Shown here: positions 9,058 through 56,688 of the stretch, piece after piece
Layout: every line of letters begins with the position of its first letter
Numbering within the stretch: the stretch's first letter is position 1
Origin: Dactylorhiza incarnata
Taxonomy: Eukaryota; Streptophyta; Magnoliopsida; Asparagales; Orchidaceae
Direction: 5' to 3'
NCBI GenBank assembly: GCA_033032865.1
Contig: JAWHQI010000040.1
Span: 5,935,001 to 5,999,000 of the forward strand
DNA: 64,000 bases
The notes under the pieces: model-generated
What the model was told of the DNA's origin: nothing
What the model saw: only the letters and a program-made list of their open reading frames with translations
Databases searched by the model: none
Position numbers and translations under genes: made by a program

Positions 9058-9148
9058 TCTTGGACTTCCCGAGGTCTACCCTGTGAGGGGCTCGCAGCGG
9101 TACTAGGAGCTATAATGGGATGACACCCCAAAGCTCCCTTTCTCAAGA
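9058..9148 (-). ncRNA. Structured motif copy A (about 90 nt)
   Basis: On the minus strand it folds as TCTTG...CAAGA closing stem, then GGAGCT...AGCTCC enclosing TGGG...CCCA, then a CCC(CTCACA)GGG hairpin inside CGAG...CTCG. The stretches CTAGTACC and CTCGGGAAGTCC are shared with copies B, C and D. The flanking sequence is unrelated to the flanks of the other copies. Role unknown. Confidence 0.65.
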
Positions 9149-9264
9149 CACTTAATGTTATTGGTAACTAACCATAAGAATACCCCTCTTATCTTTACAC
9201 TTGGTTTACCCTAAGTGGTTTATGACTCTCTAGGGGAAAGGCGATTTATCGTCAATCCCGAACA

Positions 9265-10788
9265 TGATGCGTGTCGGCAAGTGCACCGGTCGCTGTCAAG
9301 TAATAAATGTGGAGAGTGGACTCCCCGAATGTCAATCTCTTGAGGAATGCAGGTTGGGTGAACGAAAAGCGTAGCATGACTCTTGTTACACAAGCAAAAC
9401 ACACATGAAAAAGGGGGGTTCTTGGTTGGGTTTCCTAGTCTTAACAACAACAAAAAGAGATGCGGGTCGAAAACACCGCTTCGCAAGGTGAGATGGATGC
9501 AACGGCCGTGATGTCGTGCTTCGTGAGGCGGAATGGAGTGTGTTCTAGCGCGAAAGGGTGAGGGTCGTAAACACCTCTTCACAACCATTGTTAGCTCTTG
9601 CTAACACGGAACAAACACCTTGTGTGCGTGTGCGAGTGAGTGAGTGAGAAGGGAGTGGATCACAAACAAACCATGAAGAACAACAAGGAAACATTCATTT
9701 CAACAAACGTCATCATAATATTCGAGTTTACGCGGTTCAACGAGTACAATGGAGGAAAGAGGAAAGAAATAACCGATGGTGAAGACTAGCGGCCGTTCAC
9801 GGCCGGAATGGTAGGTTGTCGGGCTACCTCCGGACTCGGGCGGACTATGCTTCCGGCGTAGAGAGCTGTCACGATCTCCCTACGTAGCTCCGTCGTCTTC
9901 GACTTCAGGTTCCTTCTTCTTCTCACCGGCCGGAATGAGAGAATGGTTGCTTGGAGGCTTGCGGACGATGGAGAACACTCACGGACAATGGAGGAAGGCT
10001 TGGAATGGATGGAGGAGGCTTCCCCTTGCGTAGAAGATGAAGTGGAGGCGTCCCACGGTGAAGGTCGGCGGCGTACGGAACAGGAATCCCGCTCCCGGCG
10101 GCTGATAATGCCCTAAAAATTGCAACAGGCGTTTAAATAGGCGCTGGAATAAATACTGCGCACGGTCATTGGCGCACGACCAGTGGTCGTGCGCACTAGC
10201 GTTGATGGTCGTGCGCAATACAGCAAACAGAACTCAGAATTTTAATGATAAGTGCGCACGAGTAGTGGCGCACGACCGGTGGTCGTGCGCACTGGCGTTG
10301 GTGGTCGTGCGCACTGGCGTTGGTGGTCGTGCGCACTGCACCAAACAGAACTCAGAATTTTAATGATAAGTGCGCACGAGCAGTGGCGCACGACCGGTGG
10401 TCGTGCGCACTGGCGTTGGTGGTCGTGCGCACTGCACCAAACAGAACTCGTGAAAAAGGGTTAAGTGCACACGATCAGTGGCGCACGACCAGTGGTCGTG
10501 CGCAATAGAACCGGCGATCGTGCGCAGTGTTCCTGTGCAGAATTGCACCGGGAACACTCGCACGACTCCTATTCCAGGCACAACCACAAATCTAGCCACT
10601 GAAAGTGGCACTTGACAGCACATGAATACTACTAATGACAATAAGCACGAAAATCACACCAAAGTGGGCCTAGATGTGCACCTAGCATGGATTATCAAAT
10701 ATAAGCTATAACAAGGCTATAGTGCGGTGAATTGACTAAAAAACGGCCCGGATGAGTCCATAAATGTGTAAATGATCAGGACTCATCA
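9265..10788 (-). mobile_element. Solo LTR of an Athila-like Gypsy family
   Basis: 1524 bp with TGATGC...CTCATCA ends, flanked by GAACA at 9260-9264 and again at 10789-10793. No internal sequence or second LTR is attached, so it is a solo LTR left by LTR-LTR recombination. The TGATGAGT start on the minus strand resembles the LTRs of N2. A TATA-like CTATTTAAAC lies at about 10131-10140 on the minus strand, preceded by a palindromic repeat array at 10150-10525. Confidence 0.88.
10150..10525. repeat. GTGCGCAC/GGTCGTGCGC tandem array in solo LTR U3
   Basis: About three and a half diverged tandem units of 85-120 bp, each with GTGCGCACGA and a long dyad. The dyad at 10268-10290 has perfect 10-bp arms (GCGCACGACC and GGTCGTGCGC) around GGT. 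Units are joined by a shared CAGAACTCAGAATTTTAATG segment. The array lies just upstream (minus strand) of the TATA-like box. Confidence 0.85.
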
Positions 10789-12884
10789 GAACACAAGCTT
10801 GCCTCTTAACTACCAGGCACACTCAACATATAGACTCCTTTTGGTGACCTCAAATCTCTTCAACCAGCCAAGGTACATTAACTACCTCCCATTCCCACTA
10901 GTGGCTACTAGTTATGTTAACTCTACAGTTTCTACTATACGCAGACCAAATGAGCTACATGAATTGTATGAGAGGAGGTACTTCAAATATTCATCCAAAT
11001 GAGACAAGGTTATTACCGGGAGTCTATCATGATATTATAATACTAAATCCAGAAGATCATAATTTTCCTTATTTATTTGGCATTTATTATAATTTCTCCA
11101 ACATTGGTCAAGTATGAAATTGAACATGAAGTGTAAGATCTTCTTATGATATGACCCCCACAAAATTATGGAAAGTATATGATATCAAAATAACAGCAAC
11201 TACAGAATGTCACAATTTTATAGTAAATTATTGGCCTCTAATTATAATATTAAATAATTATCCAATATTGGAAGTTACAAAAAGAACCACCAAAAATACC
11301 TGTCTAAAAATTATGGTAAAATTACCAGACCGCTATAATGATCAGAAACGTTTACTGACTGAGTTTCATAATTTATCAAAATCATTTAGTCACATAAATA
11401 AATATTTCAAGTAAATCCAAGCTAGGGAACATTGTGAAGTAACCTACAGATAAATAATTCCAAAAATTATACAAAAATTCACAGAGCTTTCTAATGCCCT
11501 GAAATGTCCTATCACCAAGTTTCATAATTTTTGAGAGAATATTTTGCCCTCATTTACTTATCATAATCTTAAGGCAACATAGATGACTTGTGAATGAAGT
11601 ACTAATTAACTCAATTCAAAAATCACACAAAAATTACCAGAGGTTTACATCATAATTATATGAGCACTGCCAAACTTTCATCAATATCCAAGATAAATTG
11701 AGCATGTAAATTCCTCTTATAAGAAAGTGCCCTATAAGGTTATAATCTAATTCAGAGGGGACAAGTGTTCCTAAAATTCTCATAAAATTACCTAGGTCAT
11801 ATTTACACCCTATCAACTTTTCTACCAAGTTCCATGACCATTCAAGGACATATGACCATATGTCCTTCACAAGGCTCAAAGTGCAACCCTAGGGTTAGAA
11901 CTAGGGATCTAGGGCACATCCACCCCAAACCACCTCAAACCACTCATGGGGGTGTTTTATATGATTCTAAACCAGTGACCAAAGTTTCATCACCTTTGGA
12001 TGAGGGTTGACCCCTTAAATCCACCAAGAGCACTTTTTACCTAAATAGGCCTAGTTTGACCAAACTTGGGTTAATTAATTACCCAACCAAATCAGTCCCA
12101 ATTTGGATGAAATATTTACCAGAGTCATGTTATGACCCTAAGAGCCACCCACCAAAATTTGGAGGGGTTTGGATGTCATTAGACCATACAATTAATTTAT
12201 ATATGGATTATTAAATTTTTACAAAAAACTTAGAAAAAGTTTATACAAAAATACCCATTTTGGGATATGATTAGGGGGTAGGTATAATTAGACTATGCTC
12301 CAAATTTTAGGCCATTTGGATGGCTGGTTTAATGGGGGGCACTCAGATCAAGGTCTGGTCAACCCTTTGGACATGTTGCACCATTTTGAGTGATGTGGTC
12401 AAACCCCTGGTCATATTGGGCTGAAATCAATTTTAAATTACAGTAGACTCCAAGGACTACAACTTTGGTATTGACCACTTTTCCATCATGAAGGCCTAAG
12501 TATTTTTAATATTTAATTCTAAGAACAGCCATATTTGTGGCAGAAAATACAATTACATAAGGATTTATGTTATACGATTCAGCACGAATCCTGAAGCAAA
12601 TCGGATGGCAGCTGGTCATCTTCCTCCTTCAGCTAAGGGTTCAGATCAACCCGTCATGTAGCCTTTCTACCTTGGTTTTCTCAGCCACCCACGCCACTCC
12701 CCGGCCGGCCAATGCCACCTCCACCTTCCTTGAGGTGGTGGCCGGCGATAGGAGGTCTCGGTCGGCCGGTGGTGGCCGGAACCGGTGGTTTTGGCGAGAA
12801 GAAAAACCTCCAAAAATGGAGATTTCGGGCATTTTGATTGGGGACCAATTGGCCCCAATCCTTGCCGATTTTAGATGTAGATCT

Positions 12885-14945
12885 TGTAACACCTCCACTA
12901 TAATGACTATATAATATAGGTCCGGTCGGGACCCCACAGCATATAATCACCACAGCTTTAGTATTAAAAAGTGATATTGATCTAACCGTCTAAAAACTCA
13001 GAACAAACACAGTGGAAACATTAAATAAACCATATAAGTTGTCCACATCTACATAAGAGTACCATGGCCTTATGGCCTTACAAAACTCGTACTCTAGGCA
13101 AACAAACATGGCATAAAAATGTCCAAAAGATCATCACAATCCTAAGCTACCTCGGCATGCAAGCCGGAACAAGTAAAGACATCATAGCCTCACAAGAAAA
13201 TAGGAAAAATGCACTTCATGAAGCTTAGGTCTTCTTGGCCGGCGAGCTAGGTCCAGCCTACAATCCTTGCCCTGCATCCAAATCACAAAGAGTGGAATAA
13301 TGAGGGTCAGCTTTGGCTGACCAACAATGGTATAACAACGCCACTCCTCCCGGCCGTCCTAGCGGACCCCGGGGAACTACATCACCCTGCAAGTCAGCAC
13401 TTCGTATGCAAATGTAATAAACAACAATAACATAAAAATGACAGGCATGAGTGTCACAAGCATCATCCACGTTTCTATGTTGAGCAATAAAAGTAAGGGG
13501 CCTAACAATGCAGCATGTATGCAAACCTGGGTTTCACCCAAGGCTCCCTATGGCGTGTATGCTTCTAACATAACAACACACATCAACATTTCACAACAAA
13601 CCAAGGGTACTTATCATTTCCCCATGGGCGTGCAAGCCCAAGGCCAAGAACTCCACTGGGACCTCACCCCTTACATGGCTCATCTTGCCAACGGGCGCAT
13701 CAGCATACTTATTCTTGCCACAAATACTAAGCTAAAAGCCAAGAACTCCATTAAGACCTCACCCCTTACATGGATCATCTTGCCAATGGGTGCATCAGCA
13801 TACTTGTTCTCGTCAGTTAGCCCAAAAGGGGACTTTTGTTGCCGGGACACTCTCACCATATGAATCCAAGCATTCACGGGCTAGCCTGCCGACCACAAAG
13901 ACAAAGTCACGCCTTCACTTTCACATAAAAATTACCCTTTCCAAACCAACGTTCATTCTCACACGAAACATAAGGGCAACACATACGACGTTTTCGCCGT
14001 CATCGGATTTCTAGCAAAATCCCTAAAATGCATGTTAAGCAACATCACCGAATCGGACAACCGGTCATGATTTCGGCTTCACCAACAATGCCTAATCCAC
14101 TAACGGAGCGGATCTCTAGTGCAAAATCATGTCGAGGACAGACACAATCAACCTGATGGTTCTTCTTGAACCAAGGCGACCAAAACCCCTCTCATTTGAG
14201 AGATCTGGTTCCATAAATTTCAGAAAAGGGAAGGTAAAACCAAAGATGCCATGAACGCATCCTAAAACCGAGAGGAGAGATGTCGTTACCCTAAGAGCTC
14301 TCTTCCTCAGCATGGATCGGTTGAAAGGCGCGGATAGAAAGAAACGCCTTCTAGTCCTCTCCATGGATCTGGTTTTGGATCGGCGAACGGAGCTCTGGTG
14401 CTCCAACAATGGCGGATCTAGCCTTCTTCTTCCTCCAAACCCTACTCCTTTCCTTAGCCTCCAAAAGCACCAAAAGACTTGATGGAATGGAAAAGAAACT
14501 CCTCTGCCCTATTTAGGACATTAGGATGAACTGATCTGAGCCATTGGATCAAAGTTTAAGATGATCGGAAGCCCAGAAAATTGCTACTTACGGAGTAGGT
14601 TCCATCCGCTAAAGTCGGCGTTAGTTCTAGCGCCTGCATTAGCCCCTCGACGAAGTCCCCCTCGACGAAGCCAACTCATCGACCCGACGGCACTGCATTA
14701 CCCGACAAAAAGCTATCGCCGACGTTAGTGCTACCGCCCGTGTTAGCTATTCGACGAACTCCCTTCGACGAAATTGCCTCGACGAATCCAACTTGACGAG
14801 CGCCATCGACACAAGGGCTTTACTCGACGGGGCAGCTAACGCCTGCATTAGCTCTTAATGTCAGTGCTAGCTCCCAAATACAGAAAAACCTATACTAGCC
14901 TTAGGCATTCCAGCCTCCACGCTCAGCGAAACCTGGGGTGTTACA
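12885..14945 (-). repeat. 3' LTR of the Tekay-like element
   Basis: TGTAACACC...GGTGTTACA, 2061 bp. It includes U3 words of the GCGTTAGC and TCGACGA types at 14610-14875. On the minus strand an AT-rich CCTAAATAGG near 14510 may act as the core promoter. Confidence 0.92.
14610..14875. repeat. GGCGTTAG and TCGACGA word cluster, Tekay 3' LTR U3
   Basis: Mixed array of CGGCGTTAG / GCCTGCATTAGC dyads and about eight TCGACGA words, 70-340 bp from the U3 start on the minus strand. The same array is present in the 5' LTR at 34115-34385. Confidence 0.8.
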
Positions 14946-14948
14946 AAT

Positions 14949-14962
14949 CCACCCCCCCTTAA
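14949..14962 (-). other. Polypurine tract of the Tekay-like element
   Basis: The minus strand reads TTAAGGGGGGGTGG three bases before the 3' LTR start, the expected priming position. Confidence 0.85.
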
Positions 14963-19434: not shown

Positions 19435-19916
19435 TGTTTGCCCAGAAAGCCCGCGACCTCCCCTTATTGTTCAGTTTTCTCAGTCTCAGCGGTCTCAATT
19501 GTAGTGATCGCCCAGATCGTCAGATGCCTCCTCAACTGGGATTTGCTAAGTACCAAGCGGTCAAGACAGTGCGAGACCGCCAGCTTAAGCGGTCTGGTCG
19601 TTTTCCTTATTTTTGTTATTTGTACCCCATTTCCCTGCTCCGGCTCTCCTGTACCCCGGGCAGCCCGTAGTTTTTAGTTCTGCCTGTTTGGGCATCCCCC
19701 TCGTCTATAAATAGAGGGGTAGGGGTACCAGAAAAGCACCTTTAGCTCGGAGGCTCCAGCTTACAACCTGTGTAAGCGGTCTCATTTCTTCGTGATCGCC
19801 ATTTCGTGATCGATTTCCCTTTGTTCCAGCATCTTCTGTCTTAGTAACCTGCACTTCGCAGTTTTCTCCCGTCCCCTTTAGTGTGAATTTTGGAGGTACC
19901 ATTTTTGGCACCAACA
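19435..19916 (+). repeat. 5' LTR of the Tat element
   Basis: 482 bp with a TATA box (TATAAATAG) at 19706-19714. It contains eight GCGGTC/GCGATC/GCGACC words or complements, against fewer than one expected. Confidence 0.92.
19706..19714 (+). promoter_or_regulatory. TATA box of the Tat 5' LTR
   Basis: TATAAATAG preceded by CGTC and followed by AGGGG; the same box is present in the 3' LTR near 31829-31837. It would drive the sense genomic transcript. Confidence 0.75.
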
Positions 19917-19973
19917 GAACAAACACGCGACCTTCAGATTTGAAGTGTCAGGTGAAATCCATAGACTTTCAGG

Positions 19974-22900
19974 ATGGCTGATCGCCGTAGAGGTCGTCCC
20001 CTGCGATCTCCCAGCATTCCCCCTTCCGATCACAACCCGTTAGAAGCGCTTGAGCGCCGCTTCGAGCTTCGTGTTGAACAAGCTCTCCGTGAGGCCGCCC
20101 GAGCTAGGCAGGACGCCACCTCTGTTCAGCAGGAGATCGCGCGGTCTCAGCAAGAGGCCGCTCGAGATCGGCAAGAAGTCGTCCGGGCTCAGCAGGAGTC
20201 TGCGAAGCAGATTGAGGCTATGAACCAGGTTCTAGCCGCGATCTCCCAAAAGATCCTTCCTCAAACCTCTCAGGTCGCTACTCCTGACCGCATGGCAGGC
20301 GGTCACCCGAGCGATCACCCCGTCTTCCAGCCCGCAACTCCTCAGCGATCTCAGCATGAGGAGTTCGCCGCCCGCCGAAATTCTTTCCGAGCTGCAGCCC
20401 AGGGGCCTCCGGCTCAAACCCTGAATTTTGAAGAAGGGTTTGCTTACCCTCAAGATCCTCCCGCACCTTTTCTTCCTCCAGGACCTTCTGTTTTTGGGGA
20501 GCCTTCCCCCTTTACCGATGAGATTCGTCGGGATCCGATTCCTCATGGATTCAGAGAACCTCGCCTTCCAGTGTATATAGGAGAAACCGACCCAATGTGT
20601 CATCTTCAAGCCTTCGAATCTGTTGTTGCCCTCAGGACCATTTCAGATGGGGTAAGGTGCAAGCTGATGGTCACCTCCTTTGATGGGTCGGCCATGGAAT
20701 GGTTCTATAAGCTGCCTTGTCAATCTATCTCGAGCTTTGCTGCCTTGAGGCAAGAGCTGCTTCTAAGATTTGCCACTGCGAAGAAAAGGAAGAGTGGTCC
20801 TGCGACCCTCTTCAAGATTAAGCAAGGCGACAACGAAACTGCGGCGCATTTCGTTGACCGTTTTCAGAAAGAGATCTTGGGAGTTAGGGATATGGATCCC
20901 AAGCTCTATATGGTGGCTTTGATTAGTGGCCTGCAGGAGGGTCCTCTGAAGTTCAAAGTCACAACCAAGGAGCCTAGCTCCTATCAGGAGCTGATCAGCA
21001 TTGCCAATCGCTACATAGAAGGGGAGATCAACAACCCCACCTATGTGAGCAATTTGACAAGCAGGGCCACTCAGAAAGGCTCTGCGGGATTTTATCCGGC
21101 TCCGTCTTCCTCAAAACCTCGACCAGAACTCCCACCTCCAGCTCTGAGAGGTAAGAATTATTGCAACGGCCGCTTCAATCGAGGTAACCATTCTTTCCCA
21201 CCTCAAGGTTCATTTCTTCAAACTCCTGCTACCCCTGCTCCGCAAGTCACCTCAGTCCACCAGATCCAGTACGCCCAACCTCCTCTTCTGCCCATTCATT
21301 CGCTCTACAATGAATCCCAAGAGTCTTTTACAGACTTTGGTGTTCCTATGAGTGAAGTGCTCCAAATCCTTCAAAAGCAACCCTTTTTCAAGAAGCCAGC
21401 TCCGCTAAACTCGGATCCAAAGACCAGAAATCCTACTCTCTACTGTGAGTACCATAGAGATAGGGGACATTTGACAGAGGATTGTAGAGCTCTCCGCCTG
21501 TTCTTAGAGAAGCTTCTGAAGGAGGGTAAGCTTCGAGATCTCATCCAGAAGAATGATTCTACCAAAGCCTCAACCTCCAAAGCTAAGGAAGTAGCGGAAG
21601 TCCATTGGGAATGCGAAGAAGTGGATGATATTGGCCATCTCGGCAATATCGGCTTTCCCAATGAATGTGTGGATGCTGATGACAAAGGCGCCTTGGGCAA
21701 TCTCTTCTGCATCCACAGAGGTGCAGGTCCGGAATCTTCAAGGAAGGCGAGTCTGAAAAGGGTTTATCAATCAGAGGTTGATGCCACCTCTTCAGCCCCG
21801 GTCCGGGGAACGGTCACTTTCGGTGACGAAGACCTTCCTCAGACCGCGAATCCTTTTGACGACGCGGTCGTCATCAAAGCTGTAATTGAAAATTATACAG
21901 TAGAGAAGATTCTGATTGACACGGGAAGTTCAGTCAATGTGCTCTTCAAACCTGCCTTCGAGGCGTTGAAGACAGGTAAAACCCTCCTTTCAACTGAAGG
22001 CCCCCTTTATGGTTTTTCAGGAGAGAAGAAAGAGGTAGAAGGGCTCGTCACTCTTTCTGTGATTTTGGGAGGGATAGTGAAGCTGGTCAAATTTATAGTC
22101 GTTGATGCTCCCAGTAGCTACAACGCCATCTTTGGAAGACCCTTCTTGAATGCATATCAAGCCATTGTCTCCACCTATCATCAAGCGGTGAAGTTCGCCT
22201 TGAACGGCAAACAACACCGAATAAGGAGCGACCCGAGGAAAGCCAGGGAATGCTACGTAAAGACGGTCACCATGATCGTGTCCTCTTCTCCTCAAGAAGT
22301 TATGATGGCTGAATCAATTGAAGTTCCTGAACAAATCCAATCTGCAGAGGAAATTGAGGAGGATGCAAGAGATGGAGTTCGCTTGGAACCTGCCCAAGCA
22401 ACTCAAGAGGTCCGGATCAGCGAGGAAGATGAGAGCAAGAGCCTCTCCATCAACGCTGAGTTATTTGAAGCTGACAAGAGTCAGCTCATCTCTTGTCTTC
22501 TGCAAAATCTAGATATCTTCGCTTGGTCGGCGGATGATATGCCTGGAGTGGATCCGAATGTTGCTTGCCACCATCTCAATCTTGACCCAAACTTCATCCC
22601 GATCCAGCAGAAGAAGAGGTCTGTTGCAACTACTCTAGCACAGCCCATCCATGAAGAGGTAGGGAAGCTCCTGAAGGCAAAGTTCATCCAACCAATCCAA
22701 TACCCGGAATGGGTGTCAAACGTTGTAATGGTAAAGAAGTCAGGTGGGAAGTGGAGGATGTGTATTGACTTTACTAAACTCAATAAAGCTTGCCCCAAGG
22801 ATTGTTACCCCTTGCCTCGAATAGATTCTTTAGTAGATTCCGCGGTAGGTTATTCTTTTATGAGTTTTTTAGATGCTTTTTCAGGTTACCATCAAATCAG

Positions 22901-23129
22901 AATGCATAAACCAGATATACCTCATACTTCATTTATCACAAATGATGGTTGCTTCTGTTATCTCGTAATGCCTTTCGGGCTAAAGAATGCTGGAGCAACC
23001 TATCAGAAAATGATGGATACAGTTTTCAGGAGTCAAAAAGGAAGAAACCTTGAGGTATACGTTGATGACCTCTTGGTAAAAAGTAAATTATTCTCTTCTC
23101 ATCTTGAAGTGTGTTTTCGGGGCAAGTAA
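19974..23129 (+). pseudogene. gag-pol: Tat gag, protease and N-terminal reverse transcriptase
   Basis: 1051 codons from the ATG 57 bp after the LTR. The first 100 residues are an Arg/Glu/Gln-rich coiled coil. The gag domain follows (about residues 195-350: MEWFYKLP, LFKIKQGDNETAAHFVDRF, LISGLQEGP), then a Tat-type knuckle CEYHRDRGHLTEDC near residue 490 and retropepsin LIDTGSSVNVLF near residue 648. RT starts near residue 860 (WVSNVVMVKKSGGKWRMCID) with an intact YVDD at residues 1029-1032. The frame then ends abruptly: the RT segment that normally links SSHLE to KCVFG is missing and the reading frame shifts, so about 20 codons appear deleted. Gag looks intact and could be made; RT could not. 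Confidence 0.92.
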
Positions 23130-27035: not shown

Positions 27036-27051
27036 GAGACCGCTCGGTCTC
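27036..27051. terminator. 16-bp inverted repeat after antisense gene A
   Basis: GAGACCG-CT-CGGTCTC, a perfect 7-bp dyad around CT, 29 bp past the stop of the minus-strand gene A. The identical 16 bases lie 11 bp past the stop of gene B at 29116-29131. It may be a 3'-end processing or binding element; the 'terminator' label is only by position. Confidence 0.55.
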
Positions 27052-27080
27052 CAAAAAAGAAAAATGAAAATCATTACAAT

Positions 27081-28807: not shown

Positions 28808-28841
28808 TCAAGAAAGCGTAAAATAAAGGTCATGAAGACGG

Positions 28842-28851
28842 CTATTTATAG
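28842..28851 (-). promoter_or_regulatory. TATA box of antisense gene A
   Basis: The minus strand reads CTATAAATAG, 35 bp before the ATG at 28807 and 71 bp before the alternative ATG at 28771. The short distance favours the inner start or a very short leader. The 336-bp spacer upstream contains several GCGGTC/GCGATC words. Confidence 0.6.
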
Positions 28852-40816: not shown

Positions 40817-41678
40817 GACATCTTAGCTTAAAAACGACAAACCTGTATTTTGTGTTCTTGTCTGATTTCTTTGCTCTAATACATAGCCCTAACATTGAAC
40901 AATCATAATCAGGCGAAAATTTCAAAAGACACATTTTTCTAAAAACAAAGACTTCTATTACTAGTGCGCGACGGTAGGTTTTACTGCTGGCGGTAGTATA
41001 AAACTCTGAATTTCCTTTATTCTTTTAAAAATTATGTATTGGTATTTATTTTCTGTTATTCTTTAAATACTAAAAACAAAAAACTATAAAGAAAATAAAA
41101 ATCAAACAAAAAACATTTTCTTATATATCAAAAATCAACTACAAAATTGAAAAACAAACTAAAAACACAAAAATATGTTTTTAATTGTTTTTGATGTAGT
41201 CTTTACAAAATTCAATAATTTATGAAAACTGATTGTTATTCATTGAAATGTTTCAAGGATGATTAGGTTTATCTTTTCATGATTAAAATACAATGTTAAA
41301 TTAAAATTTCAAGTATCTTAAAACATTATTTTGTGTCATGCCTTGAACATTATCTTGTAATGTGCAATTAAATTGATTATAGAAATCATGTGTAGGATTG
41401 TTTAGCATGCCTCTAAGTATGAGTAATGTTTTATGTTTGATAATGATATACGCACTCACATCTTTGATAATCTACATATGATTATAATCTTTCTTGCATG
41501 ATTTAGTAGTGTAACAACTTAACATTATTAGATGTGTGATTAATTTACCTACACCACAATAAAAATCTCTTTCATGCACTCATATATGAAGAAGTGTGTT
41601 CAATCAAAAACTCTATGTTTGCAAAAACAAGTGAATTCAGAAACCTTTGTCACCAAACTAAAATTCAAATGAATAAAT
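40817..41678 (+). other. C3 3' untranslated region, first part
   Basis: AT-rich, no coding frame. One CGGTA dyad (40967-40998) of the type found in the LTR. It ends at TAAAT (41674-41678), the target of N1, and resumes at 49016. Confidence 0.7.
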
Positions 41679-42852
41679 TGTTGGATCTAAAGGCGCCCTT
41701 AGAGGGGGGTGAATAAGGGTTTTAAAAAATTATATTATATTTTGGAATACTTGAAATAATAATGATCAAAATAGTGATTTTGAATAAAGATCTAAATTGT
41801 TTTATAATGAAGGAGAGGATAATAAACAATTGAGAGAAATGAAGATCAAATCAAATTAATTACACAAAGAGAGACATGATTATTATTAATAAAATTGATT
41901 ACAAAATTCGATTTCAATGACGCTAGAAATCAAGGCGAAATATGAAAGACTCTTTTTGTTTTCTATACCGACTCGTATCCCCATGAACCGGTTGGCTTTA
42001 GTCGATCCTTCCCCGGATACGACCTCAAGCCGCTCTAGCCAATCCTTCCCCGGATATGTCCTCAAGCACCCCCTAGATCTATACCCTAGACCTCGTCACC
42101 AACACGAGGTGAATTTCTGCCCTAAGTCCTACCCAGACCTAGTCGCCAATACGAGGCGAATTCACTAAACGATTACAAGAAATGATGTAAAATAAATAAC
42201 AACAATATAAAAACTCCCTATATGGATCTCTTGGAGAAGTAGATGAAGACTTGCAGAGTATGATCGTAGTCGATGTGGTCTTTCGTCACGATGATGACGG
42301 GTGTTGAAATCTTCTCCACGGATCTCCTTAAGCCTTCATGGATTTATGGGAGTATCTCTCTGAACCTTCCTATATATGATGTGGAACGAAGCTCTGGAAT
42401 TTGGGAGTGGGAGAGGGATGAAGAAGACGGATCCAAGGGGTTCTTTTTATAGCCTTGGAGATAGTGCATGCACTAACGCTACTGTCGGTGCTATCCCAGA
42501 TTAGGCAATATCCTTCATTTTAAGCAAGTTGATCGCCTTCCTCTTGTGCTTTGCACTACCGCCTACGCTAGTAGATACCGCCCGTGCTAGTTTCTACCAC
42601 CTGCATTAGCTGTTATCGCCTGGCGCTAGCACCTTCTATAACTGCTCCCGAAATTTTCTCAAATCAGAGCTAGCGCTAGCGCCGGCTCTAGCGGGCATGT
42701 TGGAATTTTGGCTTCAAATTTGGGCGCAACCTTCTTATGTTATCTTTGAGTCATGTGGACTTATTTTCCTGCACACTTAAACACACAAGATCAAATACAC
42801 ATAGGATTTGTTATTCTCAAACCTAGGAGATGCGGAAGACCATGTTCCAACA
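41679..42852 (-). repeat. 3' LTR of N1
   Basis: 1174 bp, TGTTGG...CCAACA. TATA box GGCTATAAAAAG at 42443-42454 (minus strand) with a TAGCGC/GCGCTA dyad cluster at 42470-42710 upstream. Confidence 0.93.
42470..42710. repeat. GCGCTAG/CTAGCGC dyad cluster, N1 3' LTR U3
   Basis: Variants such as CTAGCGCTAGCGCCGGC and ACCGCCTACGCTAG; the equivalent cluster in the 5' LTR is 48630-48870. Related to the TAACGCC..GGCGTTA dyad of C0. Confidence 0.75.
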
Positions 42853-43506: not shown

Positions 43507-44449
43507 TAGTCCCATATGCAAATACTAGAAAATACTCAACCTAGCACTCTTTCCCCCCAGTGCCTCGCAAGACCCCACTAGAACCCTCCCCGGTTAAGGA
43601 CAAGACGTGACTTAGAGGTCAGGTTATCTAATGTGTATGACCCTACGCATTCGCTATGGTGAGATGTGAAATTATGGGATAATAATCATTGGAATCATTA
43701 AGCATTTGAATCTAATGATAAGTTCATATCCTATGGTTTTATATTTTTATTTGAATGTTTTTTGAAAAACTCTCATAGCTATTTTGAAATCCATTAATGA
43801 ATCAGAGTTTTTAGCATAAAAGTGATATTCGTGTCAGAACAACCAATATAAATTCTACCAAGCAAGTCTACCATTTGTTGAAAAAGGAATTTCAAGATTT
43901 AAGACATTGATATAAGCATTAAAGCGCAAGGTAAAAAATACATGGTGATGATGCGGAAGACTTATAAAAATACAAGAAACATCTTTTTGTAAACATGACG
44001 ATTCATAAGAAGATATATGAGTTAAATTCCAAAAATGAAGATGTTTTTGTAAATCAATTTGCGTTTAAAATCTTTAAGTTTGACAATAAAGTAACCAAGC
44101 ATGAAATAATGTTTTCAAAAGAGATTACTACAATGTTATATTAATTCAAAAATTCAAAACATACAAAACATTGTAGAGAGCATGCTAGGTTATCTAGTGC
44201 ATTTATATATATAAAGAGTAGTATGGAACTTAGCATTAGGATTCAATACTCATGAGAAGAAGTGTTATAGAAGATAATGATGTGCACATAAGTGTATTTT
44301 GAATAGAGTAAACAAATGATTTAATCAAAAATACAAGACATATGTAGAGTAAAGTGCACAATAAAACACAAATAATTTTACTTCCACACACTTCAATGCA
44401 CATAGGAAAAAAATTGTAAAACTACCAAGGTGTTTTGCACACACAATGC

Positions 44450-44655
44450 TCATTAAGACTTATCAGGGGGCAATGTAGTGCTTGGGGGATCACACACTTT
44501 ATTATGCAATATATATTTTTTTTTTTGTGATCTGGTGTACTTAAGAATAAGTGGTGTAAAAATGAAGGTTTGCACAAGACACTTTACTATTCTTTCCAAG
44601 GTGCTCAACCTCACAACGCTTATTAATATTTATTAGGAGGTTCAAGTAGTGCTTG
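44450..44655 (-). repeat. Two copies of the CAAGCACTAC 3' untranslated motif in N1
   Basis: Minus-strand copies near 44650-44590 and 44500-44450 read CCAAGCACTAC, then a spacer with CTCCTAATAA or CCCTGATAA, then TTAATRAGCRTTGT. In the first copy CTCAACC and GGTTGAG flank the unit and could pair. C3 has the same pair at 49034-49250. Confidence 0.65.
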
Positions 44656-45173
44656 GTTGAGTTATCTTTGTCAATTTATTTCATGATTATTTTTTGTACA
44701 AAGTTCTCTGAATACACTTGTTTTGCAAACCAATGTAATTTGAAAGGACAACCACTTTTCTTAAAAATTAAGAGTGCAAATAAAGGTGGTGTAGATAAGA
44801 TACTTGTGCAAAATTTAATTCATTGTATAGTTACAATTCATAAGCAAGCATTCTTAGATTAAAAGCACAAGTAGACTTTGCCAAAATAAGTGAGTGAATA
44901 AAAATCATTATCAACCATAAAACATTTACTCATACTTAGAGGCATGCTAAGCTTGGTTCTACACAACCTTTTCATTACAATTGGTGCACATATGAGTAGA
45001 TATATCAAAGCATGATAAAAACAATGTTCAAAGTAGTTTGAAAAGAGGAATTGTAACATTATAGACGGTCTAAATGATGGATTAAATCATGCTTTATTTT
45101 CACAATAAAGTCCATACAGTATTTTTGATATTTAGAAAAAAATTTTGATTTAAAGTTTGAACTCTTAAGATTG

Positions 45174-45265
45174 ATCTTGGACTTCCCGAGGTCTACCCTG
45201 TGAGGGGTTCGCCCGGTACTAGGAGATGTGATGGGATGATAGCCCAAATCTCCCTTTCGCAAGAT
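45174..45265 (-). ncRNA. Structured motif copy B
   Basis: On the minus strand ATCTTG...CAAGAT closes it, GGAGAT...ATCTCC replaces the GGAGCT...AGCTCC pair of copy A, TGGG...CCCA sits inside, and ACCC(CTCACA)GGGT follows. The A-T for C-G exchange keeps the stem. Located 1.1 kb after gag. Confidence 0.65.
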
Positions 45266-46353
45266 ACATGTAAATAGAAAAGTTTAAGTTCAAAAAATGA
45301 TTTTTGATAATTCTTTGTTTTATATTTTTGTATTTGATTTTTGCATATATAAATAGAAATTAAACAAGTAAATAAAGAATCGAAGAGAATAAAATATTTT
45401 TTGCAATTTTGGCTTTTGTAGTTTTTTTTTATTATAATTTTTCAAAAATCAATTAATGGCATAAATGCAAAAATGAGTAGTACATATAAGGTAATATATT
45501 TATAGTGATTTTTTAGAATTTTAAAATGACATAAAATCGGACACTTGAGCTAGCGTCGGTGTTAGGTCCTAGCGCCTGCGTTAGCTCACAAAGAGTGCTT
45601 ATTTTAATCGTATAACCTAGATTTTCTTGATTTCACTTCCGATTTTGCTTAATTATGTTTGTGCAATGTAAGACCTGTCTAATGAAGTGAAGAGACGAGA
45701 AGAAATCGCAAAAAGTTGCAGAAATTAAAATTTTAGAACATGGGCTCCATATTCATTAAACCTTAATTCTTGAGTTTTGCACAACCATTTAAGCTTAATA
45801 TTATAGGATATGCAAACAAAGAAGACATGATTGAACAAAACAGATATGCATGATTTTAGTGATAATAGATTTGTCATTTATAAATGAAAAACTGACTTTT
45901 TCTTTTGATTTAATTTGATTTGCAAACTTCATTTAGGCTTTAGGGGACAAAGTCAAATTTCAAATATTATATTAGATGACCATGCCATGATATATATTTT
46001 CTTATATCTTCATTTTGATTTTTCTAATGCCATGATAAATATCTCATAACAAATTTAGAGTTTGATTCATATGCATAATATAAGATATTTATTGGCAATG
46101 AATATAAGAATAATAGATAGGTCATCAAAATAAAATATGATTTTGAATTTTGATCAATTTGATTTATAAACTCATTAAGTTTTAAGAGATAAGATCATAT
46201 TTCCTATAATATATAAGATGACCATAACATGATAGATTAAAAAAAAGACATTAAAGCATATCATAAAGTAGAAAATTTGTATATTTCATTTTTGAAAATA
46301 TTCTACTTCATGCATTTGGTGATATATACCTAATGAATAAGAGATTTATGTAT

Positions 46354-47842: not shown

Positions 47843-47844
47843 CT

Positions 47845-49015
47845 TGTTGGATTTGTAGGCGCCCATAGAGGGGGGGTGAATGAGGGTTTTAAAAACTTAT
47901 ATTATATTTTGGAATACTTGAAATAATAAGAGATCAAAATAGTGATTTTGAATAAAGATCTAAATTGTTTTATAATGAAGGAGAGGATAATAAACAATTT
48001 AGAGAAATGAAGATCAAATCAATTTTATTACACAAAGAGAGACATGATTATTATTAATAAAATTAATTACAAAATTCGATTTTCAATGACGCTAGAAATC
48101 AAGGCGAAATATGAAAGACTCTTTTTATTTTCTATATCGACTCGTATCCCCACGAACCGGTTGGCTTTAGTCGATCCTTCCCCGGATACAGCCTCAAGCC
48201 GCTCTAGCCAATCCTTCGCCAGATATGGCCTCGAGCACCCCCTAGATTTATACCCTAGAGCTAGTCGTCAACACGAGGCGAATTTCTGCTCTAAGTCCAA
48301 CCCAGACCTAGTCGCCAACACGAGGCGAATTCACTAAATGATTACAAGAAAAGATGTGAAATAAATAACAATAATATAAAAACTCCCTATATGGATCTCT
48401 TGGAGAAGTAGACGAAGACCCGCAGAGTATGATCGTAGTCGATGTGGTCTTTCGTCATGATGATTACGCGTGTTGAAATCTTCTCCACGGATCTCCTTAA
48501 GCCTTCATAGATTTGTGGGAGTATCTCTCTGAACCTTCCTCTATATGATGGTACGAAGCTCTGGAATTTGGGAGTGGGAGAGGGATGAAGAAGACGGATC
48601 CAAGGGGTCCTTTTTATAGCCTTGGAGCTAGCACCGGTGCTATCCCTGATTAAGCAATATTCTCTGCGTGAGAATCCTTCATTTTAAGCAAGCCGGTCGC
48701 GTTCCTCTTGTGCTTTGCGCTACCGCCTGCACTAGTAGATACCGACCGCGCTAACTGCTACTGCTCTCGTTAGTTGCTATCACCTTCTATAACTGCTCCC
48801 AAAATTTTCTCAAATCAGAGCTAGCGGCGGCGCTAGCGCTAGCGCCGGCTCTAGCGGGCATGTCAGAATTTTGGCATCAAATTTGGGCGCAACCTTCTTA
48901 TGTTATCCTTGAGTCATGTGGACTTGTTTTCCTGCACACTTAAACACACAAGATCAAATACACATAGGATTTGTTATTCTCAAACCTAGGAGATGCGGAA
49001 GACCATGTTCCAACA
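47845..49015 (-). repeat. 5' LTR of N1
   Basis: 1171 bp, pairs with 41679-42852; differs by scattered substitutions and small indels, roughly several percent in the first 250 bp. Confidence 0.93.
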
Positions 49016-50255
49016 TAAATGACAAAGATAACTCCACCAAGCACTACTCACTCTCCTGATAAGTCATAATGAGCATTGTAAGGTTGAGCAGCTTTGAGAG
49101 AATTGTAAAGTGTCTTGTGCAAACACTTTTATACACTACTTCTTATACATCTGATCACAATTAAATCAAAGAAAACATAATATATGTGATCCCCCAAGCA
49201 CTACTTTGCACTATGATAACTCTTAATGAGCATTGTATGTTAAAAACACCTTAGTAGTTGTACTATTTTTATGTGCATTAAAATCAACTATAACTTTTTG
49301 GGTGGAAGTAATTCTAAAAACACATTTTTCAATAATGTTGTGTTTATTCCACTATACATGTGATGTGTTATGATTAAATCATTTGTATACATTTATCAAA
49401 AACACTATTTGTACACATCATTATCTCTTATAAAACTTCTACTTATGAGAATTGAAGTCTAATCCATATCAACATTTCTTCTCAACAATCTTTAGTAGAT
49501 ACACTAGATAACATTGCATGATCTCTACAATGTATAAGTTTTCTTGAAATATGAATTTAAAACATTGTATCTCTCTATCTCACCTTGATAAAGTGAAACA
49601 TGCTAACATTCTTTTTGAATTTACTTTCCGATACGCCTTGTATGCTCAATCTTGATTATTTACTCTCTAAACAAGTGATATTATGTTTTGATAACAAGTG
49701 ATATTTGATCTTGGCCTTTAAATGATAAAACATCTGTTTTCTACTAGACTAAAACTCTTACTCATTTACTATGCTTCAAACTCTTATAAAGATGTTTCTT
49801 CACAAAATCTTTCAACGTGCTTTCCACAAATTTCCTACTTGTAAGCTCGATCATGAATATTTTTCTTACCCTACGAGTGGTCTATTATTTACTAATTTAA
49901 TGGTACCCACACTTACAAATCAAATCACTTTTACTCATTCACCATATGGTATCACTAAGTCATAAATCTTTATTATGCTCATTCTTTTCTCTAAAAAATA
50001 TTAAACCTTAAATGATATATTTTCTCTCCACCCTCTTTTGATAATACCAAAAGAGGGAGAATAACTTTAAAAGAAATTCACAATGGGGAGTAAAATACAT
50101 AGGATACTTTGAAGTAGGGGGGGCACTCATATAGGGGAGCATCTATATAAGGGGAACATATGTATACTATCATGCTTATCCTTTACTATAAACACAAATC
50201 TTATATTTGAATGATTTCTTTCTATGAGGATTTGTTATTATTAAAAGGGGGAGTT
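49016..50255 (+). other. C3 3' untranslated region, second part, with duplicated motif and polypurine tract
   Basis: Non-coding. Two copies of CCAAGCACTACT...TAATGAGCATTGTA lie at about 49034-49080 and 49190-49245, the same motif as in N1. The polypurine tract AAAAGGGGGAG is at 50243-50253, directly before the LTR. Confidence 0.75.
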
Positions 50256-52211: not shown

Positions 52212-53939
52212 TGATGCACAAAACTTATGACTCACAAACGAAAACGGCAAGTGTACTGTATCGAATGTAGTATAGGTTATAAAAACCAAGGTCGTATTAG
52301 ACTCGGGGTGGTTGAGTATTCTTACTTCAAGAAAATCTCTATTATTTTATCAATTAAACTTTGGGTTGATTTTGCAAAAACAAAATAAAAATAAGATTAA
52401 AACGATGAGTAAAAAGGCTAGCACTCGATCTTAGAATCACCGCGGAATAAAGAATAAGAAGAAGAAATAAAATCGCACTCTCTTACTAAAATAACTTTGA
52501 CCATGGGGATTCCCGAATTATGTACGTACATTGGGTCGAGGATACGCCCAACTAAGATTAGGAATATCAACCAAATTTTCATTCTATAATCGATAACCTA
52601 ATACTCGCTTTATGAGATGAATCCCGTTATTGGCTTTTACTCTAATCCGGAAGGGTAACGTCGACCTCTCTCGAGGAGTGCATTCTACTCTTCTTTATCC
52701 TTGAGTTGATCGATTCGTCTTACGAGCTGGTTCGGCTAACTAAAGAATGAAAACAAGAACGAGAATTATATATCGAAAATATAATCTCATTTCATTAAAA
52801 TCAAGGATAAATCTTAAGCGTTTTAGAAAAGAGAAAGAGCAATTCTAAATTACTTCAAAACCAATATTATTCCTTGGATCATCTCGATCGAGTACTAATA
52901 ATATTTTAGTTACTCATGGAGATGGAGGAATCAAAAGAAATAAAAGAATACATAATGAAGAAAGAAAAGAATAAGACAACAAAACTATTTTATTAAGTGA
53001 GGCAAAAGATATTACAAACTATGAAAAGGAAATTAAAACAATTGAATTGAAAAGTACAATTTGCAAGAAGTAAAAGGATGATTATAAGAACTACTAAAAA
53101 CATGAAAATAATATACGAAAATGAAAGTTCTAATCCTAAAAATTGGTCTTCAATCTCTCACTAATCTAAATAAATCACATCCCCCCAATGAGCCCTATTT
53201 ATAGGTGCAAAACAATAACAGCCGGCCCAAGCATTTGAAGAAAGGTAATCAATAGGGGGTGGGGCCATGGCTAATTTAATGGAGACGTTTCTTGGAGCAG
53301 GCTGGACAGCTGGTGGAGCTTGGGCGGAGGAGGTGCTGCTTCTAGCTGGACATTGGAAGAGGCGCACATGGATTGCTGATGTGGCATGCATGGGAGTAAA
53401 GGTAGCCAGACCGCTAATGTGGAGGTAACGGCGGTGTTGTTGAACATTCGTCAAACTCTCGCCCGTTCATCGATCGGAGGCCGCTAGGAGACAGTTTGTC
53501 GATCTTCCGCAAATTTGTCGAACGTAGTTCATCGAACGGAAGTCGCCAGGCGGCAGTTCGTCGATCTCCTACAATTTCGTCAAATGCAGTTCGTCGACGG
53601 AGTTCCCCAAGCAGCAGTTCGTCGAATGCCCGCAATTTTGTCGAACGCAGTTCGTCGAACGGAGTTTGCCATGAGGCAGTTCGTCGATCTCCCACCAATT
53701 CGTCGAATGCAGTTCTTATCCAGTGGTCACACCCCCAGGTCACGCCCGTGACCTTGGGCGTGTACTTATAAATATCGTCCAAAATTTTCTAGAAAACCTG
53801 AAAAATATAAAATGAGCTTAAATTAGTTAAAGAAATAAAAAGGAATGAATTCGATTGGATAATTCATGTTATTTATTCAAATTCATATAAAAATATCAAT
53901 AAAATTATATTAAAGGATGAGTACAAAAAGTACTCATCA
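52212..53939 (-). repeat. 3' LTR of N2
   Basis: 1728 bp, TGATGC...CTCATCA. TATA box CCTATAAATAGGG at 53193-53205 (minus strand), TTCGTCGA array at 53440-53715. A purine-rich ATGGGGGTGT precedes the LTR (53940-53948). Confidence 0.92.
53440..53715. repeat. TTCGTCGAACG tandem array, N2 3' LTR U3
   Basis: About four to five units of roughly 60-70 bp, each with GCAGTTCGTCGA and TTCGTCGAACGGAG. The same array at 58040-58335 in the 5' LTR has a slightly different unit number. The TTCGTCGA core is shared with C3 and Tekay U3 words. Confidence 0.82.
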
Positions 53940-53950: not shown

Positions 53951-55001
53951 ACTTGAGTTTTTGCTATTCCAGAGCAAAAGAATGAGGAAAGAATTACAAG
54001 AAATTGATATTATTTTTAATTAACTAAAATTTTGTTAAATCAAGAGTAAGTTAAAAGTAAATTCTAGGAATTCAAGAATTAAGTCATAAATTATGGTGAT
54101 AATTTAAAAGGAGAAAATTATTTAGCTAACTACTTCTCAAGATAACTATTTAGCGATCGAAATTATAGAAATTTTCAAACAAAATTAGATTGAAATTATA
54201 GATACTCTAACATAAAAGAAGCTTAAGGAAAAGAAACCTACCAAAAACTACTCTCTTAATAATTTAGTTTAGGACTAGAACTAATGAAATTGGCTAAGGA
54301 TGTGGGTTTACTTGAAAATGGCAAATGAAGAGATACAAAAATAAAGGTGATGAATTTTATCCTCTCACCTTATTTGAATACGAGTTTGCATATGTTTAGG
54401 AAAATAAAGAATTTTTCCATGCCATTTAATTTTTTAAAATTTCTCTTCAATTAAAAACCCAAAATGAAAATGTGTAAAAGTAATGAATTTTATCCTCTTA
54501 CTTTATGACATATAATCTTTTAAATGATTTTGGGTGCATATGTTTAGGGGATAATGAATTTTATCCTCTTATTCCCATGACATATTATCTTTTTTCTACA
54601 TTTTTTTATTTGCCAACAAAGGGTGAGGGGGAAGAAATACTTCTAGTTTATAAATTAAACTATTTTGAGGGCAACTTTTTAATGGAATGAAATTTCCTAA
54701 GATCTTTAAAGTTAAAAGAGAATATAATAGAAATCTAGAGATGTTTAGCCAATTTACTACAAGTGAAGCTATTTAAAATTAAACGGAGAAGTAGTGCTAA
54801 ATAAATTCTCTATTTGAATTAAAAACATAAAGTGTTTATTAAAACTAAATTACATCAAATTTAAATTTAACTAATTCTGATAAAACAAAAAAATTAGCTA
54901 AATTAAAAATGTAAGAATACTTATAATCAAACCTCAAACTAAATTTCTAGAAAAATAAAAACAACAAGGCTAGGCATATTTATTATTTTTATAAAATTTT
55001 A
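53951..55001. other. Non-coding interior of N2, AT-rich
   Basis: No coding frame. Three copies of TAATGAATTTTATCCTCTTA-like sequence near 54350, 54481 and 54549, each followed by a partly shared stretch with GCATATGTTTAGG in two cases. Confidence 0.6.
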
Positions 55002-55095
55002 TTTCTTGGACTTCCCGAGAGCTACCTGGTGAAGGGTTCGCAAGGTACTAGGAGCTGTGATGGGAGTTCAAGCTCAAAGCGCCCTTTCCAAGAAA
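55002..55095 (-). ncRNA. Structured motif copy C
   Basis: Closing stem of nine pairs, TTTCTTGGA with TCCAAGAAA, longer than in the other copies. The inner hairpin is GAG(CTTGAA)CTC. It shares CAGCTCCTAGTACCTTGCGA and CTCGGGAAGTCC with the other copies. It lies 230 bp after the N2 gag-like frame (minus strand). Confidence 0.68.
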
Positions 55096-55324
55096 TTAGA
55101 TTTTTATTAAATTATAATTTTTTTCTTTTTCAAATAAAAATACAGTGAACGTAAATCTACACCCTCATACTTAAAATTAAACATTGTCCCCAGTGTTTAA
55201 AACTAAGTATGAAGAACACTTGAAAAATATACTTTAAAAGAAAAATACATAAAATTAAAGATAAGCAAGGGGTGCCTCCCAAGAGTGCTTTCTTTTTCCC
55301 GTCTTTAAGCTAGACGGTTAGGGG

Positions 55325-56485
55325 TTAGCTAAAAGGAAATTTAAATTGGAAATGGACAGGTAACTCCCTTAATTCACGTGTAGGTGAATGTGTCGACGTC
55401 AGTCGGCCGGCTTCTCCTCCGCTTAACATGTGATTCTCTGTTTGTCGTTGGACTTGAATTTGCAAATCCAAATCACCTATACATACCTGAGGTGATTTGG
55501 AAATATAAAGATGAGCGGCATATGGATCATCAATTCTTTGGGGTAGCAACAACTCATCTTCAACTGGAAAATTATTCATTTTTAAAGAATCACAAGTAAA
55601 TGATTCAGATAATTTTTCGCAAGGAGGAGGAGCTTGCAAAAATATAAAATTAAGCTCCGGTTGTTCCTTTTCTAAAATAAAATTTTCTGTAGAAAAATCT
55701 AGTGCATTACCAAGTAGAATTAAATTATCGGACACTAAATTTTCATGAATTTTCGGTTGAATTAAAATAGAAGAATTTTGTGAAAATTCATGACAAAGAA
55801 AAGAAGATCTGGGTGGAGTAGGGGAAGAAACTTGTTCTTCTTCTAGTTCATCCGGGGTGCCCAAAACATTAAGAAAATCATGGTAAGAAAATTTTTCTTC
55901 ATCTTTGGTAAAAGAAGTTATGGGATTACATGAAAGCACATGTTCCACCATAACTAAATTATCAAGAGGTGGAGAAAAAACACTAGACGAAATAATATTT
56001 TCCTCTAAATTTTGGGGGGAAGTATCTATTGGAATCTGCGGAATTTCCCCAAAATTAGAGAACGAAAATTGCGGTGTATAAGAAGAAAAACAAAAATTCG
56101 GATCTAAACATTTATCTTCATCACTCCGAGAACTATCCGGGTGAGCTTGCCACCAGGAATAATCTACTTCGGAGCTAGAAGAACAATTATTAAACACCGA
56201 AAAATTATTCTCATTAGAAAAAACATTTTCATCAAAGTTTGAAAAATTATTTTCATGAAAAGAGGAAAAATTATGATCGTAATTATAATCAAAATTATTC
56301 GCATAATATTGAGGATAATTATTTTCATAATAATTATTTTGAGAATATGAATGTAAATAACATTCCTCACGTTGATGGGGCGCGCCATAATAATAACAAC
56401 TAAATTGGCGCCTTCGTGCGGCTTGTAAGAGATAAAGTTGGTTTTGAAGCTCGGCAACTTTAACGGCCAATTCAGATAATTTCAT
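55325..56485 (-). CDS. N2 gag-like protein, 386 aa
   Basis: Intact frame from MKLSELAVKVAEL. Residues 1-25 are a short helical segment. CYYYGAPHQREEC (about residues 30-42) resembles the Athila gag knuckle CX2CX3HX4C, but the second Cys is Tyr. The next 80 residues are Asn/Tyr/Phe-rich, low complexity, and the rest is acidic and Ser-rich. No capsid domain, protease or RT is present, so it corresponds to the tail end of an Athila gag kept alone. An intact frame of 386 codons in a region with stops elsewhere suggests a recent copy. Confidence 0.6.
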   Translation of the reverse strand: MKLSELAVKVAELQNQLYLLQAARRRQFSCYYYGAPHQREECYLHSYSQNNYYENNYPQYYANNFDYNYDHNFSSFHENNFSNFDENVFSNENNFSVFNNCSSSSEVDYSWWQAHPDSSRSDEDKCLDPNFCFSSYTPQFSFSNFGEIPQIPIDTSPQNLEENIISSSVFSPPLDNLVMVEHVLSCNPITSFTKDEEKFSYHDFLNVLGTPDELEEEQVSSPTPPRSSFLCHEFSQNSSILIQPKIHENLVSDNLILLGNALDFSTENFILEKEQPELNFIFLQAPPPCEKLSESFTCDSLKMNNFPVEDELLLPQRIDDPYAAHLYISKSPQVCIGDLDLQIQVQRQTENHMLSGGEAGRLTSTHSPTRELRELPVHFQFKFPFS

Positions 56486-56598
56486 AATAAAAATAAAAAG
56501 GAAACAACTTTCACTTAAATGAATGGAATTTTTAGAATGTTATTAATAAAAAATATTTATATAATGTTTTTCTTCTTTTAAAAAGTGGGTTTAGTTAG

Positions 56599-56688
56599 TC
56601 CCGGACTTCCCAAGGTCAACCCGGTGAAGGTCTCGCAAGGTACTAGAGGTTGTGATGGGAATTCAAGCCCAAAGCGTCCTTTTCGAGA
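56599..56688 (-). ncRNA. Structured motif copy D
   Basis: Closing stem TCTCG with CGGGA, where relatives have TCTTG with CAAGA: an exchanged pair plus a G-U. Inner hairpin GGG(CTTGAATT)CCC. The outer part of the second stem is weak. It lies between the primer site and the gag-like frame. Confidence 0.62.

Follow-up and report, generated by a model that had tools for sequence, protein, structure and literature searches.

Why does one short, apparently structured motif recur in retroelements that are otherwise unrelated? The question is raised by a 64,000-nt stretch of the Dactylorhiza incarnata genome (GenBank assembly GCA_033032865.1, contig JAWHQI010000040.1, positions 5,935,001 to 5,999,000 of the forward strand), here called the window and numbered from its first letter, in which a sequence-only reading had reported four copies of such a motif in three retroelements, X, N1 and N2. 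All four copies were found in the sequence at the reported places and on the minus strand (Table 1). The motif is about 95 nt long, and its description as a compact core between unrelated flanks holds, with pairwise global alignment of the four copies giving identities of 0.75-0.89 within the motif versus 0.35-0.54 in the 100-nt flanks. A covariance model built from nine copies, X and N1 among them (model R1), returned exactly X, N1, N2a and N2b when searched against the window at E <= 10, and no further copies. At 28320 and 35820, window sequence also aligned with fairly high scores, but both were gapped matches that R1 misses and were set aside. Taking the evidence below together, we consider it very probable that the motif is a sense-strand, cis-acting RNA element that is structured and under selection.

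Table 1. Motif copies and host features in the window (LTR, long terminal repeat; ORF, open reading frame)
Feature	Positions	Strand	Description or basis	R1 score (bits)
Motif copy X	9054..9152	minus	P1 9148-9144/9062-9058, P2 9138-9132/9111-9105, inner hairpins	119.8
Motif copy N1	45171..45268	minus	noncoding stretch of Copia-type element	117.6
Motif copy N2a	55000..55097	minus	about 230 nt past N2 ORF	69.6
Motif copy N2b	56595..56692	minus	N2 leader	58.2
Repeat with motif X, LTR-derived	8223..12197	minus	likeness to L019-L025, L040, L050, L051 and others
N1 host 5' LTR	47844..49015	minus	self-comparison; 88.7% identical to partner 41678-42852
N1 host 3' LTR	41678..42852	minus	self-comparison
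N2 host 5' LTR	56813..58558	minus	self-comparison; 92% identical to partner 52212-53939
N2 host 3' LTR	52212..53939	minus	self-comparison
N2 ORF, 386 aa, between N2a and N2b	55325..56485	minus	open reading frame

The proposed fold consists of a closing stem (P1), a P2 arm capped by a hairpin, and a second arm that has AGUAC and GGGAAGUCC in its strands. The closing stem of TCTTG/CAAGA type named in the sequence-only reading is present, and its P2 reads GGGAGCT/AGCTCCT in X and GGGAGAT/ATCTCCT in N1; in the N2 copies, however, P2 is imperfect, with one mismatch in N2a (C facing U) and two in N2b (C facing C and C facing A), as read off alignment A4. This alignment holds 92 copies obtained by running R1 on the window and 86 loci. 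A one-base shift in the N2 types escapes MAFFT, and the model behind A4 was instead built from nine unshifted rows; A4 leans toward the proposed fold. One locus (L049), whose 5' half is other sequence, was for that reason excluded from the tree-null, 5S-likeness, box/block and pair-probability tests. Over 88 distinct rows, 90.7% of the paired cells were complementary, versus 85.6% in shuffled alignments and 36-52% with slid partners, and 119 cells showed double changes versus 38.8 in the shuffles, none of 500 of which was as high.

As the motif copies are related, we also simulated substitutions along their tree (87 rows, 300 simulations). The observed pairing in P1 (94.5% of cells) and in P2 (91.7%) was reached in none of the 300 simulations, nor were the 84 double-change cells of P2, whereas the 26 double-change cells of P1 were reached in 16. 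The pairing of P3, P4 and P4a was reached in 12, 7 and 84 simulations, respectively. Pairing thus supports P1 and P2 beyond phylogeny, with double changes as a second line for P2; for P3 and P4 pairing is the sole support, and P4a has none. The clearest pair, 20-43, occurs as C-G in 41 rows, A-U in 23 and G-C in 12, and both of its sides change on 7 branches, 6 times from pair to pair. Two pairs passed a pair-by-pair test against the tree null at E < 0.05, namely 20-43, which lies in the structure, and the non-canonical 66-71. The latter two columns, in a hairpin loop of A4, show a coupling of C..A versus U..C that is the second strongest of 4,560 pairs. The claim of a conserved RNA fold is upheld, with pairing beyond phylogeny in P1 and P2, but covariation is weaker than the sequence-only reading implied: a single proposed pair is significant by itself, and double changes are not in excess in P3 or P4.

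Several results weigh against so structured a reading. Further pair types were hardly in excess (40 versus 36.4 in the shuffles, with 20 of 500 reaching the observed value), the covariation score was weaker than the pairing (the null reaches P1 in 99, P2 in 11 and the whole in 31 of 300 simulations), and double changes in P3, P4 and P4a did not exceed the tree null, P4a pairing in only 65% of its cells. Single-sequence folding was unremarkable (z of -1.42, -0.75, -1.65 and +0.51). Although the mean pair probability over 91 rows was 0.71 for P1 and 0.57 for P2, it was 0.00 for P2 in both N2a and N2b and 0.02 for P1 in N2b, and RNAalifold, run on the plain MAFFT alignment (A2), produced a weak fold unlike the proposed one. 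Folding energy alone is thus insufficient to reveal the motif. The two C-G pairs beside AGUA/GAA are invariant and hence uninformative, most copies having been selected by a pattern that demands these letters. P1 and P2 are well supported and the other parts of the fold are a model, from which the N2 types may deviate somewhat.

We further assessed conservation in relatives chosen by their flanks, searching the genome with the 501 nt downstream of X and taking 20 of at least 39 other matches. The R1 motif was kept in 19 of the 20. Across these 19 copies, the motif had a site conservation of 0.921, compared with 0.867 for the upstream flank and 0.884 for the downstream flank (permutation p 0.0008, taking sites as independent). 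AGTA and GAA were both intact in 14 of the 19, and these blocks were barely better kept than the rest of the motif (0.94 versus 0.918).

The motif is abundant. The exact pattern CTAGTACCN{15,45}GGGAAGTCC matched the 3.27-Gb genome 25,294 times (12,536 forward and 12,758 reverse), and the same two-block pattern read backwards, used as a control, not once; a looser second pattern gave 25,106 matches (12,493 + 12,613) against 769 (377 + 392) for its control. The N1 copy itself has at least 40 places in the genome at 99-100% identity, its own included. When the 1-kb flanks of 41 places (the 4 in the window and 37 in 3-kb loci, a subset of the copies retrieved) were clustered by single linkage, three groups of 18, 15 and 8 emerged, with one of the elements X, N1 and N2 in each, which bears out the earlier claim of three unrelated retroelements. 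The host lineages are a Copia, an Athila-like Gypsy and a probably-Gypsy element, and the motif occupies a different site in each: the spacer after pol in the Copia host, both the leader and the region after pol in the Athila-like Gypsy, and the LTR in the X type. The Athila label and the transfer RNA (tRNA) types assigned below to primer-binding sites (PBS), Asp and initiator Met (iMet), are our own assumptions.

That all copies lie in the sense strand of their hosts, as had been proposed, is correct wherever the host strand is readable: the PBS of N1 (iMet-type, at 47842) and of N2 (Asp-type, at 56806) both lie on the minus strand with one mismatch each. X can be oriented only through a relative, L050, in which motif, LTR end and PBS are all on the same strand. 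No frame of at least 140 aa overlaps the motif among the copies surveyed for frames.

Within N2, copy N2b begins 114 nt past the start of the PBS and stops about 110 nt ahead of the ORF, and N2a and N2b are separated by 1,595 nt. Neither a Pfam match nor a database relative (E <= 0.001) was found for the ORF. Longer N2 relatives carry paired motif copies about 5.75-6.2 kb apart (for example C11:1445854/1440100, C22:2559416/2565299, C22:2631030/2625149 and L063/L064). Gag sequence lies downstream of the leader-side copy in L057, of N2 type, and integrase sequence lies upstream of the downstream copy, on the same strand, in the relatives L067, L039, L046 and L064. L046 also holds a Copia reverse transcriptase (RT) remnant on the opposite strand, which we take for a neighbouring element. 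L063 and L064 (C11:3830732 and 3836921) are apparently one element with copies 6.2 kb apart on the same strand, one ahead of a long frame and the other after integrase sequence, and both copies are N2b-like. As the L064 copy is N2b-like although it follows integrase, motif sequence type is not strictly tied to position, and exchange between the leader and downstream positions is possible.

Copia RT remnants precede the motif, on its own strand, in 2 of 12 N1-type loci (L026 and L034); in the remaining 10, none was found within 1.5 kb. The idea that an N1 relative at 586-2984 of the window carries the motif was dropped, since none was found in L141. None of six queries representing pol or gag-pol domains of the window matched inside N1 or N2, and both look non-autonomous from their sequence. 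The X repeat is broken by about 1.5 kb of other sequence at 9265-10788. Its relatives L050 and L051, 8,155 bp apart, are 95% alike across 2,930 nt, and the likeness ends where the PBS follows L050; we read them as an LTR pair that probably belongs to a single element, in which the motif precedes the PBS by about 1.4 kb. L023 has the same motif-to-PBS spacing, and the LTR of this lineage is at least 2.9 kb long. Another X-type locus, L283, holds an integrase-like remnant on the same strand as the motif, which points to Gypsy, and two frames examined there had no convincing Pfam domain. The X host is an iMet-primed element, probably a Gypsy.

No Rfam family matched the window or the X stretch relevantly at either gathering or permissive thresholds, in agreement with the earlier statement that the motif fits no familiar ribozyme core. 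We then compared the motif with 5S rRNA, using a 5S gene of the same genome (L098) as reference. Two regions are 5S-like: AUCCCAUCAnAnCUCC resembles loop C, and GGGUnGACCUCGGGAAGUCC resembles the loop E region on its 3' strand, the loop names and promoter-box limits being those of conventional 5S anatomy. Gapped local alignment placed ATCCCATCAnAnCTCC against loop C and GGGTnGACCTC(..)GGGAAGTCC against the loop E 3' strand, collinearly in X, N1 and N2b, and in N2a the first block alone aligned. With 45 non-redundant copies, 1 of 2,000 shuffled 5S sequences scored as well; with 16 more diverse copies, 27 of 20,000 did so for the whole motif, 15 of 20,000 for its 3' part and 268 of 20,000 for its 5' part, and none of 2,100 window pieces scored as high as 5S against the motif. 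The likeness to the genome's own 5S thus exceeds chance, if only modestly.

Promoter boxes A, IE and C were matched by 59, 56 and 37 of 300 shuffled boxes, i.e., they are not kept, whereas the loop C and loop E blocks, picked after seeing the match, were equalled by 1 and 0 of 300 shuffles. If the likeness is real, the RNA-facing parts have been retained and the promoter has not, and a retained RNA polymerase (Pol) III promoter is unsupported. Other results argue against a 5S origin. Single window copies were equalled by 0 to 91 of 1,000 shuffles, the latter figure being that of N2a, and without its last 25 nt the motif drops to 94 of 1,000. R1 found no match in the genome's 5S, and the Rfam 5S model, RF00001, found none in the window or in the X stretch alone, whether at its gathering score or at E 10. 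By the usual anatomy of 5S, its helix II has no counterpart in the motif, and P2 pairs differently. The comparison with 5S was moreover one of choice, with other RNAs implicitly considered in uncounted number. We regard it as an even question whether the motif, judged by its sequence, is derived from or mimics 5S rRNA. The AGUA/GAA pair would be compatible with a bulged-G (loop E) module, but UACC can alternatively pair with GGUA in X, so that such a module is no more than a candidate.

A known 5S mimic, P5SM, is an element of plant TFIIIA pre-mRNA that is bound by ribosomal protein L5, which also binds the viroid PSTVd through its loop E (PMC6164485, in part). The host TFIIIA gene, part of which is in L162 (G000:C2673), has a 5S-like stretch at sense positions 1740-1835, in an intron between two coding matches (score 45, with 0 of 1,000 shuffles as good), which is presumably the P5SM exon. 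The Rfam 5S model does not match this stretch at E <= 10, and its failure on the motif therefore leaves room for a distant 5S relative. Like the motif, P5SM as read in L162 combines loop C-like sequence with AGUA/GAA in a 5S-like RNA that is part of a Pol II transcript. It differs in being a host splicing switch (PMC6164485, in part), and the copy in this genome is not motif-like beyond chance: R1 does not match it, and 648 of 1,000 shuffles compared as well with the motif set, which counts against a 5S-mimic reading and leads us to reject the identity of motif and P5SM.

The reading that we favour, if only tentatively, is that the motif is a 5S-mimicking RNA handle for a host 5S-binding protein that steers the element RNA. 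The motif would be derived from 5S rRNA or have been moulded into a mimic of it; a host protein that binds 5S would dock on it, with ribosomal protein L5 as the first candidate and TFIIIA as the second; and the bound protein would steer unspliced element RNA, for instance into nuclear export or into the packageable pool. The sense context where it can be read, the conserved pairing of P1 and P2 and the sharing across lineages are observed; the 5S likeness is suggestive of the first step, and we infer the protein binding and its effect on export or on the packageable pool. In its boldest form, which we think unlikely, Copia and Gypsy elements would trade a common 5S-loop-mimic module, capture L5 or TFIIIA and ride the traffic of the 5S ribonucleoprotein.

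A packaging or dimerisation signal read by Gag, with non-autonomous elements packaged in trans and the motif spreading by template switching in shared particles, is a live rival, if an unlikely one in our estimation; it fits the apparently non-autonomous hosts nearly as well as a handle for L5. N1 and N2, with no pol or gag-pol domain match and an N2 ORF that lacks a Pfam domain, nevertheless keep the motif, and N2b lies in the leader between PBS and ORF, a usual place for packaging signals. Three N2-type copies (L057, L065 and L114) look chimeric within the motif, their 5' halves being nearest to N2b and their 3' halves, which differ at few sites, nearest to X (X and N1 tie in L114). Such a pattern hints, short of proof, at lineages exchanging sequence within the motif, and so at the sharing by recombination proposed in the sequence-only reading. 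Yet the Gag proteins of two superfamilies would need to recognise a single signal, N1 and N2a are situated far beyond the leader, and a likeness to 5S would not be expected. A translation element, either an internal entry site or a cap-independent enhancer, whose 5S likeness would draw in ribosomal parts ahead of gag (N2b) and after pol (N2a and N1), is likewise a live rival but seems to us improbable. The distance of N2b from the start of its ORF would suit it, and a frame of at least 140 aa, measured stop to stop, opens 147-426 nt past the motif start in L047, L057, L063 and L065, among which only that of L057 was typed as gag; N2a and N1, however, are followed by AT-rich sequence in which no ORF of at least 200 aa is listed, and the X-lineage motif sits inside the LTR, well ahead of the PBS.

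Poorer still are the prospects of a leftover 5S-derived Pol III promoter or short mobile element with no role at the RNA level. The LTR elements Cassandra and Ajax do carry 5S sequence in their LTRs (PMC10853983 and PMC10886601, in part), and the X lineage has its motif in the LTR, but the promoter boxes are not kept, and the conserved pairing of P1 and P2 and the double changes of P2 would be unexpected in a relic, which the tree-null test already strains. Least probable, and very unlikely, is a self-cleaving ribozyme of an undescribed class. The motif is compact with a conserved core, and L053 and L054 show two copies 159 nt apart, an arrangement that a ribozyme could use; cutting in a leader or spacer would, however, break the genomic RNA. 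Rfam includes the known self-cleaving classes, and none of its ribozyme models matches in the window, so the sequence lends nothing to the self-cleavage raised in the sequence-only reading. Plant retroelements bearing hammerheads, the retrozymes, do exist (PMC4918200, in part).

Among related systems, Cassandra and Ajax share with our elements a 5S-like sequence in LTR retroelements, in the LTR itself for the X lineage. Cassandra relies on its 5S promoter (PMC10853983, in part), whereas the motif lacks the boxes and keeps the loop blocks, and its hosts include both Copia and Gypsy elements that carry it in leader and spacer. Membership in that group, of short, non-autonomous elements with 5S in the LTR, is rejected, as only the X lineage has the motif in an LTR, one of 2.9 kb or more, N1 and N2 carry it internally, and the 5S promoter boxes do no better than shuffles. 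The mouse IAP RTE and MusD MTE act through RBM15 or a pseudoknot fold and NXF1 (PMC12786077, in part) and resemble the motif as structured cis elements that steer unspliced element RNA, a role only proposed for the motif; they belong to mouse systems and are likened to it by role, not by sequence. The same late-2025 review, in the portion consulted, describes the nuclear export of plant LTR-retrotransposon RNA as not directly studied (PMC12786077). Sirevirus elements have conserved noncoding motifs, in the LTR and spacer among other places, and are thus comparable as plant LTR elements; these motifs belong to one Copia genus and, in the part of the source available, are not presented as a single RNA fold common with Gypsy (PMC2829016). 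A structured-RNA screen of 130 plant genomes yielded 16 candidates, and the word retrotransposon is absent from its main text (PMC12218528). No published description of the motif was found among the top-listed literature matches, subscription papers and preprints being outside the scope. R1 had no match in 80 of at least 120 viral-contig loci (700,522 bases), and 17 viral-contig matches of another pattern scan were not motif-like on reading.

Structured cis elements are of a known kind, of which one shared by Copia and Gypsy with a likeness to 5S appears to be a new form. Found in three unrelated lineages, in sense orientation and clear of long reading frames, the structured element makes a concrete candidate for a common host-facing signal. 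Functional RNA modules may, in addition, move from one retrotransposon superfamily to another, a transfer that gene trees would miss; if the proposal of a 5S-mimicking handle is true, plant retrotransposon RNA would have a shared trafficking element with more than 25,000 copies in one genome.

A few further features of the window and of the motif loci were recorded. L053 and L054 are two repeats 5.2 kb apart with two motif copies of differing type, 159 nt apart at 1493-1591 and 1652-1747, and an RT/RNase H frame in L053 reaches the repeat boundary. A Gypsy element at 12884-34464, with LTRs at 12884-14949 and 32401-34464 (92% identical) and an exact iMet-type PBS word at 32398 on the minus strand, encloses a nested Gypsy element at 19435-32039 whose LTRs are 97.5% identical; R1 found no motif in either. 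An inverted pair of about 555 nt (72%) joins 44129-44679, inside N1, with 49015-49569, just outside its LTR. In the stretch that interrupts the X repeat, positions 10183-10434 form a tandem array of 118- and 22-nt units (GGTGGTCGTGCGCACTGGCGTT).

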